From the IMG/VR virus record IMGVR_UViG_3300043803_001657, positions 1 to 24,024 of that record: 24,024 nucleotides of DNA; one strand, 5' to 3'. This DNA is from a virus. Below are positions 3,632 through 21,648 of the stretch, piece after piece. The number at the start of each line of letters is the position of its first letter. The stretch's first letter is position 1. The notes below the pieces were generated by a model, which was not told the DNA's origin, ran no database searches, and saw only the letters and a program-made list of their open reading frames with translations. Made by a program: the position numbers and the translations under genes.

Positions 3632-3889
3632 ACCGATGCGTCGATGCTCGCCCGTGTCTTCACGGCGTCCGAACTTTCCCAACTCAAAGCAAGCTGCAAG
3701 GCGCAAATTCTGGCGGGCGGCGCCTCTCAAGCGTTTGTTTTGTCAAGCAGTGTGGGCGGTCGGTCGGTGACGCTTCAGAAAAGTTACGATGCTTGGGAAA
3801 TGCTGGGCCTCATCGAGACGGCCCTTGCCATCAATGCCGGCGACATCGGCAACGACCGCGCCACCCGCGCCCAATACGGAGTATATTAA
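3629..3889 (+). CDS. gpW-like head-tail joining protein
   Basis: An 86-residue protein between the large terminase and portal genes, exactly where lambda W lies. Two helices (about residues 12-28 and 53-68) flank a short beta hairpin around FVLSSSVGGRSVTLQKSY, the layout expected of gpW and related small adaptors. In lambda, gpW binds the portal after DNA packaging, stabilises the filled head and prepares it for the tail. Similarity is by size, fold pattern and position, since these proteins diverge strongly. The stop is one base from the portal ATG, which implies translational coupling. Confidence 0.7.
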   Translation: MTDASMLARVFTASELSQLKASCKAQILAGGASQAFVLSSSVGGRSVTLQKSYDAWEMLGLIETALAINAGDIGNDRATRAQYGVY

Positions 3890-3890
3890 C

Positions 3891-6227
3891 ATGGCCAACC
3901 TCATCGACAAAATGGCCAAGGCGCTGGGCTTTTCCCGCATGGTCGAAGCCGCCAACTGGCGCCCGGAAGAACGCGCATGGGTGCAGTCGCAGGCGCAGGA
4001 CAGCAAGGTGGATATTTCCAACGGCGACCGCGTGCGCCTGCTCGGCCTGTCGCGCAAACTTTTTTACAACAACGCGATCGTCAGAAGCGCCATCCGCGAC
4101 AAGGCGACCTACTCGGTCGGCTCGGCCATCGCCCCGCAGGCCAACAGCGGCGATCCCGCATGGGATGACGCCGCCGAGGCGTGGTGGGACAACTGGAGCA
4201 AGTCGCCCGAAATCAGCGAGCGCCACGATATGCGCCGGCTGCAAATGCTCGTCTCTGAGGCCATCGACCGCGACGGCGAAATCTTTTGCATCCTGACCAA
4301 CAAGCGCGATGGGATGCCCGCCGTCCAAGTGGTCGAGTCGCATCGCGTGGCCAACCCGCCCGACAAGGCCGACCAGATCATTGATGGCGTGAGCCTCGAC
4401 CGCTTTGCGCGCCCGCTCGCTTATCATGTGGTCGAGGGCGACACCTTCAGCCAGCGCACCAGCCGCAGCATCCAGGCGGATCTGATGCTGCACGTTTACG
4501 AGCCCGAACGCCCCGACCAAGTGCGCGGGTATCCCGCCGTGGCCGTGGCGCTGAACAACCTCCTCGACCGCGACGAACTCCTCCGCTTTGAGATGCAGGC
4601 CGCGAAGATCGGCAGCAGCATCGGCCTTGTCGTTCAGAACGCGCAGGGCGGTGTAGGGGCCGAGGGATTCTTTGGCGACTTGTCCAAGAGCACAGGCGAA
4701 AGCCTGACCCGCGAAACGGTTTTCGGCGGCGGCATGATTCCGCGACTCAAGGCGACCGAGCGCATCGAGTCCTTCATGATGAATCGCCCCAACGAAAAGT
4801 TGGACGCGCATCTGGAGCAATACATCCGCGCAGCCGCGCTCGGCCTCGGCCTGCCTTATGAATTTATCTGGGACACCTCCGCTGTCGGCGGTGTGGCCCA
4901 GCGTTTCATCATTCAAAAAGCCGCCCGCGCCTTTGCCGCCCGGCAGGACGTTCTTATCTCCTCTTTCCTTGGCAAGCTCTGGAACTACGCCATCGCCAAC
5001 GCCATGCGCCGCCGCGAACTGCCGCAGAATCCGAACTGGCGCAGCGTTCACTGGCAGACCCCGCGCTCGATCACCGTGGACGTAGGCCGCGAAGCCGCCG
5101 CCCGCCGCGACGATGTGAAGGCCGGGCTCATGACCTTGGCCGACTTCTTTGGCGAGCAGGGGCTCGACTGGAAAACCGCCATGCAGGAAATCGCTGCCGA
5201 ACGTCAGTTCGCCGCCGAGCTCGGCGTGGTGGTCGGCGTCGAGCGCACCGAGGGGGCGACAGAGCCTAACGCAAACAACGAATCTGAACAGGCGACAATA
5301 ACCGAAGACGCCATTGATCCTTCAGAAGTTGAATACAGCGTAAAAAAAAAGACTCAGCTTGATTGCGGCACGGGAGATGGGGGATTCAAGCCAGGAAATA
5401 ACTGCGCCGGTGACTCTAAAGGCAAATCAAGTCCCTCGGCAAAGATAGTTAAGAGAGAAAGGGTCGGACCATTAAAACCAGAGGACATTGCCGACGACGG
5501 AAATTTGATAAAAGGCGAAATTGCGGGGCTTACAATCACAACCCCAGATAAGCCCGACGCGCTAGACAAACTAAGCAAAAAAACATCTTCGGAGCTTAGT
5601 GAAGTTCTTTCAGATCAAGAAACAGTTGATGCTCTTAAAAAAGCGGGCATCAAAAATATTCAGATTAAGAGTTCTTCAAAAACCCCCAGCGGCAATGTTT
5701 GGTATGGAGGCCATACAGACGGAAACTTGCTGCTTCACACACGCAGCGCCGACGCTATTGCGAAAAGTCCCGACGAATACAGAAAGACCTTTGGGCTGGA
5801 TCGAGTAATCAACCACGAAGCCGGGCATGGTATTTTTAGGGCCGCAACTGATTCACAGGTAAAAGACTTTGCTGGAGCCCTTAAGGGAAACCCAGTTGTC
5901 ACTGAAGCAATAAGCAAAAGAACCCGCGTGAAATATTTGCCAGGGGAACTGTTTGATGACTCTAGAACTAACAGAATCGTCGAGGAAAGTTTTGCGGAAA
6001 TTAACGGAATGAAGCGGTTTGATCGCAATTCCTACGACAGTTTGCCGGAAAACATTAGAAGCGCGGAAAGCGCCATAGAGAAGCAAGCCGAATTGCTGGC
6101 GGGGTTTAGAAAAAGAATCAGAGGCAAGATGCAGTCGGAAGAAACGCCGACCGAACTTTCCGCCCGCGCCCGCAAAAAGAAACGCATCTACAAGCGCAAG
6201 AAGTCCGATCCCAAGCCCTCCGCTTGA
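3891..6227 (+). CDS. Lambda-type portal protein with C-terminal zincin-like metallopeptidase extension
   Basis: 778 residues from ATG 3891, one base after the gpW-like stop; the open frame extends further upstream but only through that gene. Residues about 1-460 are a lambda gpB-type portal: RPEERAW near the N-terminus, RDGEIF, VESHRV, HVYEPERPDQVRGYPAV and, later, GLGLPYEF. The portal dodecamer forms the DNA channel and terminase docking site. From about residue 465 the sequence becomes AT-richer and contains a paired-cysteine linker DCGTGDGGFKPGNNCAG, then a domain with NHEAGHGIF (H642, E643, H646) and EESFAEING (E698, E699, E703). That HEXXH plus ExFAE arrangement is the zinc site of gluzincin-like peptidases and some toxin domains. 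The last 40 residues return to high GC and are very basic. The total far exceeds lambda gpB (533 residues). The peptidase activity is inferred from these residues only. Confidence 0.9.
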   Translation: MANLIDKMAKALGFSRMVEAANWRPEERAWVQSQAQDSKVDISNGDRVRLLGLSRKLFYNNAIVRSAIRDKATYSVGSAIAPQANSGDPAWDDAAEAWWDNWSKSPEISERHDMRRLQMLVSEAIDRDGEIFCILTNKRDGMPAVQVVESHRVANPPDKADQIIDGVSLDRFARPLAYHVVEGDTFSQRTSRSIQADLMLHVYEPERPDQVRGYPAVAVALNNLLDRDELLRFEMQAAKIGSSIGLVVQNAQGGVGAEGFFGDLSKSTGESLTRETVFGGGMIPRLKATERIESFMMNRPNEKLDAHLEQYIRAAALGLGLPYEFIWDTSAVGGVAQRFIIQKAARAFAARQDVLISSFLGKLWNYAIANAMRRRELPQNPNWRSVHWQTPRSITVDVGREAAARRDDVKAGLMTLADFFGEQGLDWKTAMQEIAAERQFAAELGVVVGVERTEGATEPNANNESEQATITEDAIDPSEVEYSVKKKTQLDCGTGDGGFKPGNNCAGDSKGKSSPSAKIVKRERVGPLKPEDIADDGNLIKGEIAGLTITTPDKPDALDKLSKKTSSELSEVLSDQETVDALKKAGIKNIQIKSSSKTPSGNVWYGGHTDGNLLLHTRSADAIAKSPDEYRKTFGLDRVINHEAGHGIFRAATDSQVKDFAGALKGNPVVTEAISKRTRVKYLPGELFDDSRTNRIVEESFAEINGMKRFDRNSYDSLPENIRSAESAIEKQAELLAGFRKRIRGKMQSEETPTELSARARKKKRIYKRKKSDPKPSA
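5345..5391 (+). promoter_or_regulatory. Candidate programmed -1 frameshift site in the portal gene
   Basis: A run of nine A at 5342-5350 is read as GTA AAA AAA AAG, so A AAA AAG (5345-5351) is in the zero-frame arrangement used by bacterial -1 frameshift sites such as dnaX. Five bases later GCTTGA (5357-5362) and TCAAGC (5386-5391) can form a perfect 6-bp stem. In the -1 frame, GAC TCA GCT is followed by TGA at 5360-5362, so shifting would give a portal of about 490 residues without the metallopeptidase domain. No upstream Shine-Dalgarno-like stimulator is obvious. Confidence 0.45.
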
Positions 6228-8112: not shown

Positions 8113-9837
8113 GTGGCAAAGATTCATCTCGGCATCATTGTAGGCAACGAAGCGGCCATGATTGGCCGATTTCTTGACTCATTCTTGCCTCATGTTGATT
8201 CGATTTCAGTAGTCCGCGCCTGCGGCAACCAACCGCCCGACGAGACGCTGGACATCGTCAAGGCGCGTGGCTGCATCGTGGGCGAGTATGTGAATCGCGA
8301 AACAGGCAAGGAATGGCCCCACGTCGATAACTTCGCCGCCGCCCGCAACCAGACCTTTGCCCTCGCACCCGAAGGCACCGACTGGATCATGTGGGCCGAT
8401 TGCGACGATCTGCTGGCCGACTCAGGCGCCGAGGCGCTGGCCAAGATTCGCGGCGGCACCGAGATCATCAAAGGCGCTATCTACGCACCGTATGTGACCA
8501 GTGCGTCCGGCAGCTATGCCCGCCGCATCCGCCTCGTCCATGTGGATTGCTACAGCCAGTGGATCAATGCCGTTCACGAGGACATCGAGACGAAGGACGG
8601 CACCAAAAACACTTGGTGCATGGAACTTCAAGTCATCCACCTTCCCGAAAACAACAAGCGCGGCAGCGTAGTCCGCAACCGCGCCATCCTTGAAAGCGTG
8701 CCGCCAGAGCAACGCACGGGCCGCGAATGGTGGTTTCTCTTCCGCGAGTGTGAGACGCAGCAGGACATCCCGAAGGCAATGGAGGCCGCGATCTTTGCCA
8801 CGGCGCATCCTGACCTCGGTGACGAGGAAAAGTTCGTGGCCTATCAAACGATTGGGCGATGGATCAAAGATGTGGACGAGGCCGAGCGCCCCCTGTTGGA
8901 AGCTGTGCGCCTCATGCCGCACCGCCGCGAAGGCTACGCCGAGCTTTGCAAAATGCACACGGCCAGAGGCAACCCGAAAAAAGGGCTGGCCTATGCCTAC
9001 GCGATGGAGGCGCAACCTATGCCCGACGAACCCTCTTGGACGCACGATGCGTCCCTCTACGGATGGCGAGCGCACGATCTAAAGACGCTTGCCCTGGCTA
9101 AAGCCGGCCACACCAAAGAGGCCGAGCGCATCCGCAAAGAATGGCAGAAGCGCCTCAAGCCGCGCATTGCCGTGGGCCACCCGGCGGGCAGGGGGCAAAA
9201 GGACATCGAAGTCCGCAACCTCTGGCTGGAGCGAGCCGCGCACCCGGAGCGCGTGGCGTATTATTTTGGCATCTGCGAAAGCGACACGGAGGTGGTTGAG
9301 CAGTTGCAGCACTACCCGCACGCCTTGGCGCCCGCCGTTCCCGAAGGCCACTCCTCTTCCGTGGCCAACTACAACGCCGCCGCCCGCGCAGCCACGGCAT
9401 CAGGGGCTCGCATCTTCATTATGGCGCAGTCGGACGTTTACCCGCCGCATGGTTGGGATGAGCAAGTGATCCAAGCCATGACCCCGCACATGGACAAGCC
9501 GACCGTGCTGCACGTTTCGGATGGATTCAACAAGCCGGGCGAACAACTCATGACCATCATGACCTTCAACTGGCGGTGGTGGCTGGGCCGCGAATGGCTC
9601 CTTTGCCCCGAATACGACGGCTATTGGTCAGGCACCGAGTTTTCTTTCCGCTCTTACCGAGACGGCGTGGTCGAGGATGCGCGGCACATTAAGTTCTACC
9701 ACGACCACCCGCTATTCACAGGCGCGGCGACAGACGAGTGTTACCGCCGCCAGCAAAACCCAGAGGCCAACGAGCGCGGCAAAGCCGTCTTCCGCCGCCG
9801 CAACCCGGACGCCGTGGCACAAGGATGGGCGCCATGA
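8113..9837 (+). CDS. Glycosyltransferase, family 2-like N-terminal domain plus second C-terminal GT-A-like domain
   Basis: 574 residues from a GTG at 8113; no ATG or clear Shine-Dalgarno sits at a better place. Residues 1-150 are a GT2/GT-A fold: IHLGIIVGNEAAMIGRFLDS, FAAARNQ and the metal/nucleotide-sugar motif WADCDD at 94-99. Residues about 190-350 look like TPR-type helical repeats (AIFATAHPD, EAVRLMPHR, AYAMEAQP). Residues about 385-574 look like a second, divergent sugar-transfer domain, with MAQSDVYPPHGWDEQ and later DARHIKFYHDHP. It would transfer a sugar from a nucleotide donor; acceptor and sugar are unknown. It lies between capsid and connector genes and overlaps the next glycosyltransferase by ATGA, so the two are a coupled pair. 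Confidence 0.85.
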   Translation: MAKIHLGIIVGNEAAMIGRFLDSFLPHVDSISVVRACGNQPPDETLDIVKARGCIVGEYVNRETGKEWPHVDNFAAARNQTFALAPEGTDWIMWADCDDLLADSGAEALAKIRGGTEIIKGAIYAPYVTSASGSYARRIRLVHVDCYSQWINAVHEDIETKDGTKNTWCMELQVIHLPENNKRGSVVRNRAILESVPPEQRTGREWWFLFRECETQQDIPKAMEAAIFATAHPDLGDEEKFVAYQTIGRWIKDVDEAERPLLEAVRLMPHRREGYAELCKMHTARGNPKKGLAYAYAMEAQPMPDEPSWTHDASLYGWRAHDLKTLALAKAGHTKEAERIRKEWQKRLKPRIAVGHPAGRGQKDIEVRNLWLERAAHPERVAYYFGICESDTEVVEQLQHYPHALAPAVPEGHSSSVANYNAAARAATASGARIFIMAQSDVYPPHGWDEQVIQAMTPHMDKPTVLHVSDGFNKPGEQLMTIMTFNWRWWLGREWLLCPEYDGYWSGTEFSFRSYRDGVVEDARHIKFYHDHPLFTGAATDECYRRQQNPEANERGKAVFRRRNPDAVAQGWAP

Positions 9838-10400
9838 AGCTGGAAATCTTGATTCCCACCATCCCGTCGCGTGCGGCCATGCTGGAAAAGTTGCTTGCCG
9901 TCTTGAAGCCGCAGGCCAAGCGCAGCGTCCGCATCACTATTGATGACGGCCCCGGATCGGTCGGGGTTAAGCGCCAGCGTATGATCGAGCAAGCCACGGG
10001 CGACTATGTGGCCTTCGTGGACGATGACGATATGGTGGCGCCCGACTACGTTGCCCGAATCCTTCCCTGCCTTAAAAGCAAGCCCGACGTGGTCGGCATT
10101 ACCATGCACGTCACGATGGATGGAGAGGACTACCGCCCGTCGCCCATTTTCCGCCACAGCCTGCGTTTCCGCGACAACCACCACTGGCAGGGCCAAGACC
10201 GCACACCGCATCATTTGTGCGCCATTAAGCGCGAGGTGGCCCTACAAAGCCGCTTTCCCGATATGATGTGGGGCGAGGACTACAACTATGCGCTCGGCCT
10301 CCTGCCGCATTTACAGACCGAGGAATGGAGCGGCGACGAGCCAATCTACTTTTACAGCTACGTCACCAAGCACTACGACCCCGGCGTGGCGGGGCTTTGA
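9834..10400 (+). CDS. Small family 2 glycosyltransferase
   Basis: 188 residues from ATG 9834, which overlaps the upstream TGA as ATGA; an upstream in-frame extension is rejected because it runs through the first glycosyltransferase gene. Visible GT-A features are the N-terminal strand LEILIPTIPSRAAMLEKLL, the acidic VAFVDDDDMVAPDYV (DDDD at 63-66) that binds metal and nucleotide-sugar, and WGEDYNYAL (GED at 147-149) in the catalytic-base position of GT2 enzymes. It has no membrane anchor. It may modify a virion protein or a host surface glycan. The TGA stop belongs to the next start-associated element. Confidence 0.87.
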   Translation: MKLEILIPTIPSRAAMLEKLLAVLKPQAKRSVRITIDDGPGSVGVKRQRMIEQATGDYVAFVDDDDMVAPDYVARILPCLKSKPDVVGITMHVTMDGEDYRPSPIFRHSLRFRDNHHWQGQDRTPHHLCAIKREVALQSRFPDMMWGEDYNYALGLLPHLQTEEWSGDEPIYFYSYVTKHYDPGVAGL

Positions 10401-17128: not shown

Positions 17129-17155
17129 CACAGACGCCACGGGCAAGGCCGTGCG
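17125..17155 (+). promoter_or_regulatory. Start-associated element with start-codon hairpin, GTG start
   Basis: TTGACAC begins at 17125. The start is the GTG at 17151, 26 bases away rather than 20. CACGG (17138-17142) and CCGTG (17149-17153) form a perfect 5-bp stem whose right arm contains the GTG. GGGC is present within the loop side, not at the start codon. Confidence 0.45.
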
Positions 17156-17681
17156 CGTTTACATCAATCTCGATTCCTCTGAATTTGTCGTGTCGCCCGT
17201 GCTGACGCAGCGGGTCAACACGCTATACTTTACCCGCCGCGACACGGTTCCGGTCGAGGTGCAGTTCGTGCGAGGCGGCTCGGTGGTTGAATTGGGCGCG
17301 GGGGCCACGGGCCAGATCGGCATCAAAAAGACTTTCACGGGCAACTTCCTTGCCAACGACACAGCCTGGACAAAAACAGGCACAGGATCGACAACCGTTT
17401 ACACCTTCGACCTGAACTTGAACACCGCAAACATGGACGCGGAGTTCAGCCCGGACGCCACGACCGAAAGCGTAACGGCCAAGATCGAGGTCACTTGGTC
17501 GGTTGGCAGCACAACCACAACAACGCTGCCGACATCAGCCGTGGTTTACAACGATGTGATTCGTGGGGGGGAGCCAGCTATCACGGTGGGATCGACCAGC
17601 TTTATTCTAAAATCCCCCGACACCTCCACATGGACAGTCTCCATCGACAACAACGGCGTTTTGACCGCCACCAAACAATAA
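17151..17681 (+). CDS. BppU-like beta-sandwich receptor-array protein, 176 aa
   Basis: The GTG start is chosen because the frame opens in the start-associated element and no ATG follows until residue about 95. The product has YFTRRDTVPVEVQFVRGGSVVELGAGATGQIGIKKTF, then long Thr/Ser-rich strands and a C-terminal WTVSIDNNGVLTATK. An N-terminal receptor-like beta sandwich with an R.DT..i.v.v...G pattern resembles the BppU family N-terminal domain of phage baseplate upper proteins, which attach fibres. A second protein with a similar pattern is encoded at 19194. The fibre with a signal peptide follows with a 1-base overlap (TAATG). Confidence 0.6.
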   Translation: MRVYINLDSSEFVVSPVLTQRVNTLYFTRRDTVPVEVQFVRGGSVVELGAGATGQIGIKKTFTGNFLANDTAWTKTGTGSTTVYTFDLNLNTANMDAEFSPDATTESVTAKIEVTWSVGSTTTTTLPTSAVVYNDVIRGGEPAITVGSTSFILKSPDTSTWTVSIDNNGVLTATKQ

Positions 17682-19018
17682 TGAAAACCCTGCTCGCCAT
17701 CTTTCTCGCCACGCTTTTCGCCGCCTCCTCGCACGGGCAGACGGTGAAGGCGCTGTCTTACAATGTGACGAATAGCACGGTGATTTGGACGAATACGAAT
17801 GCGCTGAAATTTGACGCTGATGTGCGGATTGGTAGCGCTCTTGACAACATTACGATAAGCCAAACGCGAATCATAGCTAATTCTGGGAAGTTTTTTAGTT
17901 TTGAAGAAGGACGTTTAAACTTTGGCGGGGGGGCATTGGTGCTTGAAGACATGGATAACATACAAGTTCACGGCCCCATAGAGTTCAACAACACAACCAA
18001 CGCCGCCCAAACCCGCACGAACTTATCACTCGGCTGGCCCGCCCTCACAAACAGCAATTCGGCCACGGCGCTATTGGGTTACGACACGAACGGTGCGGTG
18101 GTTTATACAAACACGAACGCATTAACTTTTGTAGCCCCCATAAGCGTAAGAGGAGCACAGTCAGCTTCAACCGTTACGATCAGTGACACCTCTCTTATTT
18201 GGGAAAGCCTCGAAAGAATAAATTTGGAGGAAATGATTTTTTATGGGCTGGGGGGAGCACAGGCTTTGGAGCTTTCATTTCAGAACGGTCCAAACATTAG
18301 TTATTATCCGCTCGATTTTGGCGGAACCAACGCCGCGCTGCACGCCGCCCAAACCCGCACGAATCTCGGACTTGGAGCCACCAATAGTGTGACTTTTGAA
18401 AGCGTAATCGCTGATGTCTTTTTAGTGTCCAGCCAAATTGATTTTGACTCGCCAAGCGCTGCTGCCGCGACAAGAACGAACCTCGGCCTCGGCGCGACCA
18501 ACAACCCCGCCTTTCGCGGTCTGACCTCAGACGGCAACATCGTCATCACCAATCAGTCGGCCACAAACAACGGCCTGCTTTTCGTTTACCGCACCAACAA
18601 CGAACCCTTCCTCGGCCTCGCCAACCTACTCGCCAGCAACAACACGACGATTTCCAACGAAACGCTGTTCCGCGTAGGAGTGGCCGAGGCGACGAATCAA
18701 TCGGCGCAGTTTGGTTTTCGTTCGACCAACACAAACGGCAGCGGCGTGGCTGTGTTTAGCGTGTTTGGCTACAACGCGCTGATGCAAATCGGCGCGGATG
18801 CCTCGACCAACGCCGTGATCTTTAGCGGCGGCGGCACGAACAATGAGGTGATGACGTTGATCCGCGATGGGGCCACCGAGTTTGCACGCCCGATTCGCTT
18901 CTCTACCAACGCCTCGACCCGCCCCGCGACAAACGCCCCGGCCAACACGACGAACGTGGTCGCATGGGTCGAAATGCGGATCGGCACTAATTCTTACCGC
19001 GCCCCGTTGTATCAATGA
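17681..19018 (+). CDS. Tail fibre-like protein with signal peptide and RTNLGLG repeats
   Basis: 445 residues from ATG 17681, overlapping the previous TAA by one base. Residues 1-19 (MKTLLAIFLATLFAASSHG) are a textbook signal peptide: one Lys, a hydrophobic core and small residues before a likely cut near Gly19-Gln20. The body is Asn/Thr-rich and beta-rich, with three copies of an AA(Q/A)TRTNL(G/S)LG element near residues 108, 222 and 262, followed by ATN...F motifs, as in phage fibre shafts. Two AT-richer blocks (about 17755-17945 and 18120-18300) suggest shuffled shaft modules. A receptor-binding role is likely. A secretion signal is unexpected for a virion protein, so it could instead be displayed on the host surface. 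Confidence 0.75.
   Translation: MKTLLAIFLATLFAASSHGQTVKALSYNVTNSTVIWTNTNALKFDADVRIGSALDNITISQTRIIANSGKFFSFEEGRLNFGGGALVLEDMDNIQVHGPIEFNNTTNAAQTRTNLSLGWPALTNSNSATALLGYDTNGAVVYTNTNALTFVAPISVRGAQSASTVTISDTSLIWESLERINLEEMIFYGLGGAQALELSFQNGPNISYYPLDFGGTNAALHAAQTRTNLGLGATNSVTFESVIADVFLVSSQIDFDSPSAAAATRTNLGLGATNNPAFRGLTSDGNIVITNQSATNNGLLFVYRTNNEPFLGLANLLASNNTTISNETLFRVGVAEATNQSAQFGFRSTNTNGSGVAVFSVFGYNALMQIGADASTNAVIFSGGGTNNEVMTLIRDGATEFARPIRFSTNASTRPATNAPANTTNVVAWVEMRIGTNSYRAPLYQ
18002..18021 (+). repeat. Direct repeat copy 1 in fibre gene
   Basis: A 20-base sequence starting gccgcccaaa and encoding AAQTRTN recurs identically at 18344-18363. It marks a repeated fibre shaft element and would be a ready site for recombination between modules. 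Confidence 0.7.
18344..18363 (+). repeat. Direct repeat copy 2 in fibre gene
   Basis: Identical to 18002-18021. A diverged third copy lies near 18461-18480 (amino acids AAATRTNLGLG), where the nucleotide sequence differs but the protein is conserved. Confidence 0.7.
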
Positions 19019-19197
19019 TTCACGAGCTTTCAGATTTCTTTACCCGCCCCGTCGTGGCCGTAGCTTCCTCACTCGGTAGCGTCATCGTCTCGCTGCTTCC
19101 GCATTTAGAGACGGGGATGCGTCTCGGAACCCTTGGATGCGGCCTCGCTATCGCCGTGCTGGCGCTCGGTAAAGCGTGGAGGGACAGAAACAAATGA
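19015..19197 (+). CDS. Small membrane protein, holin-like, 60 aa
   Basis: Start ATG 19015 overlaps the fibre stop (ATGA), and the stop TGA overlaps the next ATG. Residues about 11-28 (RPVVAVASSLGSVIVSLL) and 35-53 (MRLGTLGCGLAIAVLALGK) are two hydrophobic segments, followed by a basic tail KAWRDRNK, the plan of a small class II holin. Its location inside the fibre array rather than next to the amidase is odd. It may be a second holin, an antiholin or a membrane anchor for surface-displayed fibre. No sequence motif is decisive. Confidence 0.6.
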   Translation: MIHELSDFFTRPVVAVASSLGSVIVSLLPHLETGMRLGTLGCGLAIAVLALGKAWRDRNK

Positions 19198-19559
19198 GCG
19201 CCTGCACTTCATCTCAAGCCGATCTGTGCTGGACGCGCGGCGACTCCGGGCGGCTCGATGTGTCGGTTAAAGACGCGGACGGCACGGCCTACAATCTTAC
19301 AGGGGCCACGCTTTTTCTGACAGTGAAGAACGCGCTCACCGATGCCGATTCTGCCGCCGTCATTCGCAAAGAAGTCACCACGCACAGCAACGCGGCGGGT
19401 GGGCTGTCCCATTTCGATCTTTTGACCACCGACAACGCGACCGCAGGCACTCGCTACTACGATGTGCAAATCAAAGGCGCTGACAACAAGGTTTACACGT
19501 TGTTCGGCGGCTTGTGGAAAGTGCTTTCTGACGTAACCACTCGCACCGCACCGCTCTAA
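19194..19559 (+). CDS. BppU-like small receptor-array protein, 121 aa
   Basis: ATG 19194 overlaps the upstream TGA; the longer open frame from 19176 is inside that gene. The product has a cysteine-bearing N-terminus MSACTSSQADLCWTRGDSGRLDVSV, then KDADGTAYNLTGATLFLTVKN, VIRKEVTTHSNAAGGLSHFDLL and RYYDVQIKGADNKVYTLFGG. The RGDSG/RLDV...G.. pattern and the D-G-T-A strand turns match the BppU N-terminal immunoglobulin-like domain used in phage baseplates. It resembles the protein at 17151 in layout, so the two may be diverged paralogues. One base separates it from the next gene. Confidence 0.65.
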   Translation: MSACTSSQADLCWTRGDSGRLDVSVKDADGTAYNLTGATLFLTVKNALTDADSAAVIRKEVTTHSNAAGGLSHFDLLTTDNATAGTRYYDVQIKGADNKVYTLFGGLWKVLSDVTTRTAPL

Positions 19560-19560
19560 C

Positions 19561-20385
19561 ATGGCCGCGTATCACAAAGTCGAGGTCAGCCTGAACACCA
19601 ACGCGGTTGAAGTGGGCATCCCTTCGCCGCAGACAGTAAACGTGACGCTGCCGACAATCGGCCCTGCGGGGCCAACCGGGGCAACGGGAGCCACGGGCGC
19701 AACAGGCGCGACCGGGGCGCAGGGGCCAGCGGGCACAGGCATTGAAACGCTTACGACCCAAGGCGACTTGCTTTATCGCGGTGCATCGGTTGCTGCCCGC
19801 CTCCCCATCGGCACCAGCGGCCAAATTCTTAAAGTCGCAGCGAGCGGCATTCCTGAATGGGGCGCGGCCCCGGCGTCGGGCGTGTCTTCGGTCAACGGAG
19901 CCACAGGCGCTGTGACCATAGGCGCATTTTCATACGGAAGCGGGGGCGGCGGTCTTGTGCCGCAAGCCACGAGCGGCGATGCGGGCAGATTCTTAAAAGG
20001 AGACGCAAGCTGGAGCCTGCCAACAACCAGCGATGTGCAGGGGCTTTCAGACGCGCTCGCCGCAAAGCAAAACACAGGCGACTATGTAACCCCGACTCGC
20101 GTAGAGACGGACTACTTTGATCGCGGCGGCGACAACGCCGCAACGCGCCCCGGCACGGGAGGGCAAAAACGCTATCAAGTAGTTCTTTCCAACGACACGA
20201 GGCTCATAGATCAGCGTAGTATCGCGTGGATCACTCCCGCGCCGTCATCGCCAACTGACAACACGACAAATCCCGCCCTCGGATCGGTGTCCTACGACGG
20301 CAATTATCTTTATGTGCTTGTGCAAACCCCCGGCAGCCAAAGCCGCCGCTGGGGGCGCGTGCCCATGCCTCTCAACTGGACTTAA
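19561..20385 (+). CDS. Collagen-like tail fibre protein, 274 aa
   Basis: N-terminal attachment part (residues 1-33), then about 27 residues of perfect Gly-X-Y (GPAGPTGATGATGATGATGA and on) at about 34-60, which would form a collagen-like triple helix. Next is a shaft with a DLLYRGASVAARLPIGTSGQILKV segment, a module repeated in the following gene near residue 215. A linker (SSVNGATGAVTIG) common in fibres and a C-terminal beta-rich tip ending RVPMPLNWT follow. Such trimeric fibres bind host surface receptors. The collagen part is repetitive at DNA level and so liable to length change. Confidence 0.83.
   Translation: MAAYHKVEVSLNTNAVEVGIPSPQTVNVTLPTIGPAGPTGATGATGATGATGAQGPAGTGIETLTTQGDLLYRGASVAARLPIGTSGQILKVAASGIPEWGAAPASGVSSVNGATGAVTIGAFSYGSGGGGLVPQATSGDAGRFLKGDASWSLPTTSDVQGLSDALAAKQNTGDYVTPTRVETDYFDRGGDNAATRPGTGGQKRYQVVLSNDTRLIDQRSIAWITPAPSSPTDNTTNPALGSVSYDGNYLYVLVQTPGSQSRRWGRVPMPLNWT
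19660..19740 (+). repeat. Short tandem repeat coding for Gly-X-Y
   Basis: Nine-base-periodic coding of Gly-Ala-Thr (GGN GCN ACN) with varied third positions. Varied codons suggest selection on the protein repeat rather than recent slippage. Confidence 0.75.
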
Positions 20386-20388
20386 TCT

Positions 20389-21648
20389 ATGGCCCTAAAC
20401 GACATCAAAGTTCCCAAGGAAAACGCGCAGGGCACGTTTGACGAAATTGCCTTGGCCGCGTCCGACCTCAAACTCGGCACCACCGCAAACCTCCCGCTCA
20501 AAACAGGCACAAACGGCGTAGTCGAGGCGGGGGCATTCGGCACGGCGGCAGGGAGCTTTTGCGAGGGGAATGATGCGCGGCTTTCGGATGACCGCGACCC
20601 GAATCTTCATGCCGCCAGTCACCTCCCCGAAGGCGCGGATGAGCTTTTTGATCAGTCGTTGAATACAACGGATAACGTTGCGTTCAGTAACGTAATATGC
20701 TCCAGCGGCGTCGAAACTTCCGATCTTATTGTTAATAGTAGTTTTGAGTTTAAGGACACAGCAAACGATTTTTTTGCAACAATATCTGCTTCTGACAAAC
20801 TTAGTGCAAACAGGCAAATTGATTTACCCAACGCCAGCGGAACCCTCGCCCTGCAAGGAGCCATCACCACATCGGGCCTCACCCAAGCCACCGCAAGAAT
20901 TTTGGGCAGAACGACAGCGAGCAGCGGCTCCATTGAGGAGATCCAAATCGGATCGGGCTTGAGCTTGTCGGCGGGGGAGTTGTCGGCAACGGGCGGAAGC
21001 GGCATTGCTGCCACCGTCGTGGACGCCAAAGGCGATCTCATCGTGGCCTCGGCAGCGGACACTGTGGCGCGGCTTCCTGTGGGCGGGACGAACGGCCATG
21101 TGCTTACAGTCGATTCGGCGGAAACCTTGGGAGTCAAATGGGCGGCGGCTTCGGGCGGCGGGTCTGGCGGCACAAAGACCTACGCCGTCTTCACCGCCGA
21201 ACACAACCAACCGCCTGCCACCGCCTTCGCCACCCTCGACACCCGCAACAGCATCGCCGTCTTGGACTTCGACGCCGCCACGGACGAAAGCGCAGTATTT
21301 GTCGGCGTGATTCCCGAAGGCGCTTCGCTTGGCAGTGGCCTCAAGGTTTTCATTCACTGGATGGCAAGCACCGCAACGAGCGGCAACTGCCGCTGGGGCG
21401 TTCAGTTTGAGAAGTCTGGCACAGACCTTGATTCGGACTCATTCGACACGGCCACGGAAGCGCACAGCGCGGCCAACGGCACAAGCGGCATCGAGACTGT
21501 GACCGAAATCACCGCCACGGCCATCGACTCGCTGGCGGCAGGCAACAGGTTTCGCTTGAAGGTCTTTCGCAATGCCGACGATGCGACCAACGACACCATG
21601 ACAGGCGATGCGGAGTTGGTCGCTGTGGAAATTAGGAGCGCGGCGTAA
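20389..21648 (+). CDS. Long tail fibre protein, 419 aa, mosaic
   Basis: The N-terminus (MALNDIKVPKENAQGTFDEIALA) is followed by FCEGNDARLSDDRDPNLHAASH, a module widespread in phage fibres. About residues 85-145 are encoded by a clearly AT-richer stretch (20650-20830), a likely swapped shaft block ending in QIDLPNASGTLALQG. Next comes KGDLIVASAADTVARLPVGTNG-type shaft shared with the collagen fibre. The C-terminal domain, from YAVFTAEHNQPPATAFATLDTRNSIAVLDFD onward, is a beta-rich tip. It is likely to bind host receptors as a trimer. The stop overlaps the next ATG (TAATG). Confidence 0.82.
   Translation: MALNDIKVPKENAQGTFDEIALAASDLKLGTTANLPLKTGTNGVVEAGAFGTAAGSFCEGNDARLSDDRDPNLHAASHLPEGADELFDQSLNTTDNVAFSNVICSSGVETSDLIVNSSFEFKDTANDFFATISASDKLSANRQIDLPNASGTLALQGAITTSGLTQATARILGRTTASSGSIEEIQIGSGLSLSAGELSATGGSGIAATVVDAKGDLIVASAADTVARLPVGGTNGHVLTVDSAETLGVKWAAASGGGSGGTKTYAVFTAEHNQPPATAFATLDTRNSIAVLDFDAATDESAVFVGVIPEGASLGSGLKVFIHWMASTATSGNCRWGVQFEKSGTDLDSDSFDTATEAHSAANGTSGIETVTEITATAIDSLAAGNRFRLKVFRNADDATNDTMTGDAELVAVEIRSAA

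Follow-up and report, generated by a model that had tools for sequence, protein, structure and literature searches.

The tail region of a freshwater phage genome was found to encode a fibre-like protein, SPfib, that carries a conserved Sec-type signal peptide ahead of a hypervariable repeat body, and its product is filed here, from sequence, as a phage-encoded exported envelope protein assembled from fibre modules. Export of SPfib is considered very probable, and the best explanation as a whole, which we hold at a probability of about 45%, is that an exported hypervariable fibre would act at the host envelope, most likely in exclusion.

Genomic setting of SPfib

The analysed window is the complete 24,024-bp IMG/VR record of a freshwater virus of bacteria, in which a lambda-type terminase and portal, a lectin-like gene and an amidase are encoded. 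Its TerL has its nearest match in Akkermansia phage Moulinsart (31%), a weak hint that the host may belong to the Verrucomicrobiota. Scans of genome contigs returned no relative, and matches in Mesorhizobium, lying inside an unrelated 905-aa ORF, were rejected as chance. Outside the tail genes, the 812-aa ORF of the lambda-family portal (3789–6227) has a long C-terminal extension whose HEAGH motif (VINHEAGHGIF) recalls a zinc metallopeptidase, two glycosyltransferase-family-2-like genes follow what is probably the major capsid gene within the head cluster (8113–10400), and a gene with a T5orf172/MUG113 (GIY-YIG-like) domain is located upstream of the terminase (687–1346).

Table 1. Predicted features of the SPfib gene and its neighbours in the window
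Feature	Position	Strand	Remarks
SPfib, whole gene, predicted exported fibre-like protein	17681..19018 (incl. stop codon)	+	445 aa; open ORF at exactly these coordinates
SPfib, predicted Sec-type signal peptide MKTLLAIFLATLFAASSHG	17681..17737	+	cleavage predicted before Q20; Met1 invariant, core uncharged
SPfib, mature fibre-like part	17738..19015	+	start QTVKALSYN..TNTNALKF; RTNLSLG/RTNLGLG repeats; conserved C-terminal ~200 aa (SDGNIVITNQ...RAPLYQ)
Preceding gene, fibre/baseplate-like, without signal peptide	17151..17681	+	176 aa; C-terminal VSIDNNGVLTATKQ; named BppU1 by analogy only
smTM, small membrane protein	19015..19197	+	60 aa; two hydrophobic stretches, holin-like size
BppU_N-like small adaptor	19194..19559	+	121 aa; phrog_1084, E 7e-17; PF10651 weak, under cut-off
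Collagen-type ordinary fibre, without signal peptide	19561..20385	+	tip ...WGRVPMPLNWT; tail fibre PHROGs
Ordinary fibre, second piece, without signal peptide	20389..21648	+	same ORF as collagen part in several relatives

The SPfib gene is tightly packed among its neighbours (Table 1): its ATG overlaps the stop codon of the preceding gene (TAATG), and the overlap of a small membrane protein gene with its own end, mentioned in the preliminary description, was confirmed as ATGA at the start of smTM. The product of the preceding gene gave weak PHROG matches of unknown function only and no match in a Pfam search. Among relatives, the junction before SPfib ranges from overlap to 7 bases past the stop codon, and a frameshift or read-through fusion of the two genes was rejected on inspection, as both the spacing and the sequence of the junction vary. 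The gene smTM lies directly after SPfib in 11 of the 12 distinct relatives, the exception being L021 (8826–9040), where its place is taken by an unrelated membrane protein of 70 aa that has a single hydrophobic segment and a tail resembling a coiled coil. Further downstream, the ordinary fibre of the window is divided into two ORFs of 274 and 419 aa, the first with its own tip at the end, suggestive of an inserted tip module; in several relatives a single ORF of roughly 570–1170 aa spans both pieces.

The signal peptide and its conservation

The N-terminus of SPfib (MKTLLAIFLATLFAASSHGQTVKALSYN) opens with MKTLLAIFLATLFAASSHG followed by QT, and displays a positive n-region, an uncharged hydrophobic core and a predicted cleavage site between S-H-G and Q. 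Its hydropathy peak over nine residues (2.82) is the highest among 25 gene N-termini of the window, the runner-up reaching 2.09. A fixed signal-peptide rule of our own (early K/R, no D/E, hydrophobic core and cleavage motif) was applied to the 227 genes of 13 related loci, which came from protein scans of viral contigs and of which 12 are distinct (L017 and L018 are the same sequence); it returned 13 matches, namely SPfib once per locus and nothing else. The preliminary description had called this N-terminus a textbook Sec signal and proposed a comparison with homologues; the call is borne out by the sequence features, the fixed rule and conservation, with Met1 and the signal peptide retained in all 12 distinct relatives and with M1 and Q20 invariant in their alignment.

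A set of 110 relatives was selected on a basic N-terminus and a hydrophobic core, the cleavage site not being a selection criterion, and 106 of these proteins have a small-x-small site followed by Q or N; 77 distinct signals were collected. The positive n-region, hydrophobic core and small-x-small cleavage site of Sec/SPase I substrates are all found in the SPfib family. Over 27 distinct 19-codon signals, the core lacks charged residues, with L, A, T, C, F, I, V, S and G as its sole constituents, and pN/pS was 0.45, a ratio that is indicative given the non-independence of the pairs and that points to purifying selection on the signal region. An AlphaFold monomer of SPfib had a mean pLDDT of 41, and only the signal helix (residues 2–26) scored better.

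A start further downstream had also been considered in the preliminary description, and the signal would then be a wrong-start artefact. Codon 22, the sole plausible alternative further on, reads GTG in the window and ATG in several relatives, which speaks for such a start, but it is CTG in L002, L003 and L004 and is therefore not a conserved start; moreover, Met1 is invariant and the stretch ahead of codon 22 is constrained as protein. These observations contradict a downstream start and make it highly improbable. Improbable too, though less so, is the reading that SPfib is an ordinary virion fibre in which the hydrophobic N-terminus acts as a virion attachment helix and not as a working signal. 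Its position in the tail gene cluster and its fibre repeats would suit such a role, and packing of small hydrophobic N-termini against one another is conceivable in principle, but the conserved small-x-small motif before Q and the positive n-region are signal-peptide traits, and hydrophobic cores are freely interchanged across the 77 distinct signals, unlike a binding helix.

A fibre-like, variable body

The body of SPfib has one RTNLSLG and two RTNLGLG repeats, in agreement with the fibre shaft noted in the preliminary description, and its relatives L048, L041 and L181 have repeats of the type NGGTGATN...ARTALGLG. Such shaft repeats are typical of virion tail fibres, which carry no secretion signal, whereas SPfib has one. 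An alignment of relatives revealed a strongly conserved C-terminal region and a variable middle. No match to SPfib was found in PHROGs, Pfam, PADLOC (anti-phage defence profiles) or PDB sequences; the protein thus lacks a known family and therefore a homologue with known function, a point against the main reading. An N-terminal baseplate-attachment domain was not recognisable with PHROG or Pfam, and the fibre-like sequence begins directly after the signal.

Anchoring elements were likewise sought. The C-terminal YadA-type membrane anchor of trimeric autotransporter adhesins was not recognised, Pfam giving no match for SPfib, L041, L048, L061 or L032, and the YadA-head-like repeats of L041, seen by eye only, were not confirmed by Pfam. 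Neither an outer-membrane anchor nor a lipobox was seen in SPfib, which counts against an action at the envelope; the signal of the window has no Cys, and the Cys residues of relatives mostly follow Leu or Pro (e.g. ATLC, VAPC), which is not a lipobox. In L061 (2217–3998), an exported fibre of the SPfib family has a long insert that appears beta-propeller-like by eye and has no Pfam match.

A close likeness lies in phage tail fibres with NGGTGATNAxxARTNLGLG-type shaft repeats and in BppU/collagen-type fibres, among them that of Akkermansia phage Moulinsart (WAK79082.1), with which SPfib shares its kind of shaft repeat. These known fibres and the SPfib family have some tip modules in common and are encoded next to BppU-like adaptors within the fibre region, but the known fibres possess a baseplate-binding part and no signal peptide, whereas the SPfib family has a conserved signal peptide.

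Spread and gene layouts of predicted exported fibres

Judged by their sequences, exported-fibre genes are widespread, occurring in many related viruses and in at least three layouts. A neighbour-based survey, in which smTM (60 aa) and not SPfib served as the query, gave 63 close loci, four of them cut at a contig end. The gene before the smTM homologue has a signal peptide in 54 of the 59 non-cut loci (52 by the rule, plus L028 and L059 on inspection), a figure that is not a count of independent events because some loci are near-identical. Among the remaining five, L045 and L050 have such a gene elsewhere in the locus, L046 resembles L045, and L073 and L083 have no signal-peptide gene ahead of smTM. 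The exported bodies at smTM loci range from 138 to 818 aa and have very different sequences. A separate DNA scan for TRTNLGLGA codons found 67 ORFs, with a signal peptide in 57 of the 59 that have an intact 5′ end; since this motif probably characterises a single host group, the scan does not speak for all phage fibres. The preliminary description had raised the possibility that the end of a host gene was captured. A single such event is contradicted, for the signal is a long-standing trait of the family, occurs on very different bodies and is spread across dozens of phages.

In class A, which includes the window, a fibre/baseplate-like gene is followed by the exported fibre, the membrane gene, a BppU_N-like gene and a collagen-type fibre. 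Class B (L190, L206, L200, L199, L218) has a 613-aa gene that is terminase-like by position alone, a BppU-like gene, a 107-aa gene, the exported fibre, another BppU-like gene and a collagen-type fibre, without the small membrane gene. Class C (L204, L171) comprises a collagen fibre, the exported fibre, a small second signal-peptide gene and a membrane gene. The second signal-peptide protein of class C is short (MKKLLLLVAALALALTAHAQLVPQ...; L204 7444–7848, L171 8474–8929) and is followed by a 70-aa membrane protein. Two exported fibres each are present in L199, L204 and L171. A tblastn search of known phages gave no match for SPfib or a class B relative. Between L012 and the window, the C-terminal part of the fibre is 87% identical and the terminase just 22%, and the exported-fibre cassette thus appears mobile.

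Relation to virion fibres

By a strict pattern, at least 42 of 50 loci have a signal-less collagen-type fibre downstream, so the virion would have other fibres and the exported fibre would be an extra one. The tip of the L171 exported fibre is 60% identical over 70 aa to that of a signal-less collagen fibre in L205, which supports the view that exported and virion fibres are drawn from a common building kit. Within class A, the tip types of the exported fibre and of the virion fibre of the same phage never coincide, tip classes having been set by simple text patterns under which most virion tips fall into "other". A decoy copying the phage's own virion tip is not supported in class A on this ground, and the absence of coincidence also counts against our main reading. 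Of the display on the host surface proposed in the preliminary description, as decoy receptor or for exclusion, the surface location fits the sequence evidence for export, while mimicry of the phage's own fibre is weakened by the differing tips.

The shared tip modules bear as well on a quite unlikely alternative, in which SPfib would be a virion fibre that is exported first and joined to the particle outside the cytoplasm, during or after lysis. Besides the likeness between L171 and L205, the location of SPfib directly after the fibre/baseplate-like gene, paralleling the adaptor–fibre pair at 19194–20385, is in keeping with external attachment. However, tailed phages assemble in the cytoplasm, the signal-less fibres are kept for the virion job, and the literature searched yielded no example of this. 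It contained no description of signal peptides on phage tail fibres, and since subscription journals lay mostly outside its scope, this absence is weak evidence.

A possible role at the host envelope

For the main reading, we propose that the host Sec system would export SPfib and that signal peptidase I would cut before Gln20, leaving a mature repeat fibre with an exchangeable C-terminal tip. The mature protein would not serve as a normally assembled virion fibre; it would act in an extracytoplasmic location, either the periplasm or the surface of an infected or lysogenic cell. In exclusion, a role assigned tentatively, SPfib would bind or cover an envelope structure used by phages, by which the producing cell may be shielded from further phages or progeny kept off debris. 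Against this stands the location of SPfib among the late tail genes, whose products would by default be assigned to the virion.

Exported proteins encoded near fibre genes have precedents. Lambda has, between J and stf in its tail fibre region, the gene lom for an exported protein; its product is a barrel protein of the outer membrane, whereas SPfib is fibre-like. T5 Llp is an exported receptor blocker whose gene adjoins that of the receptor-binding protein (PMC9586334), and thus resembles SPfib in being an envelope-exported phage protein encoded beside receptor-binding protein genes. Llp is a small periplasmic lipoprotein made early, whereas SPfib is a long repeat protein without lipobox from the late tail region, and the precedent is counted in favour of envelope exclusion as an analogy and not as a homologue.

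The main rival for an envelope role is adhesion. SPfib would then be an exported adhesin of lysogens with which the host sticks to surfaces, cells or polymers, a lysogenic-conversion trait like PblA/PblB in concept; these fibre-like proteins of Streptococcus phages are proposed surface adhesins (PMC4508584), and they resemble SPfib as fibre-like phage proteins proposed to act on the bacterial surface. A tyrosine-integrase domain match was found in 20 of 24 relatives (16 above the curated cut-off), and most of these phages therefore look temperate; the SPfib-family body is hypervariable and modular, as in adhesins; and one PblB, itself a tail-fibre-like phage adhesin, has a reported putative signal peptide (PMC4508584). 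However, S. mitis PblB is released via phage-induced permeabilisation, matters for tail morphogenesis and differs from SPfib in sequence and host, so that it too is an analogy and not a homologue. In addition, the start/stop overlaps place SPfib in an apparent late operon, so that expression in a quiet lysogen is doubtful, and the lack of a detected surface anchor weighs against adhesion as well. We regard an adhesin as unlikely, and exclusion or receptor masking is favoured over it.

Fibres of tailed phages are regarded as products of the cytoplasm, and the conserved signal of this hypervariable family of fibres suggests that they serve the phage at the host envelope. That a large and hitherto undescribed class of tailed phages makes Sec-exported fibres as a dedicated, fast-diversifying extracytoplasmic component, either a layer for host exclusion or capture or fibres added to virions outside the cytoplasm, is a broader proposition that we consider conceivable though doubtful. 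Annotation pipelines would call such exported fibres "tail fibre" or leave them blank. Through the SPfib family, the diversity of fibres in temperate phages of freshwater bacteria may become linked, in a testable way, to superinfection exclusion or to adhesion.
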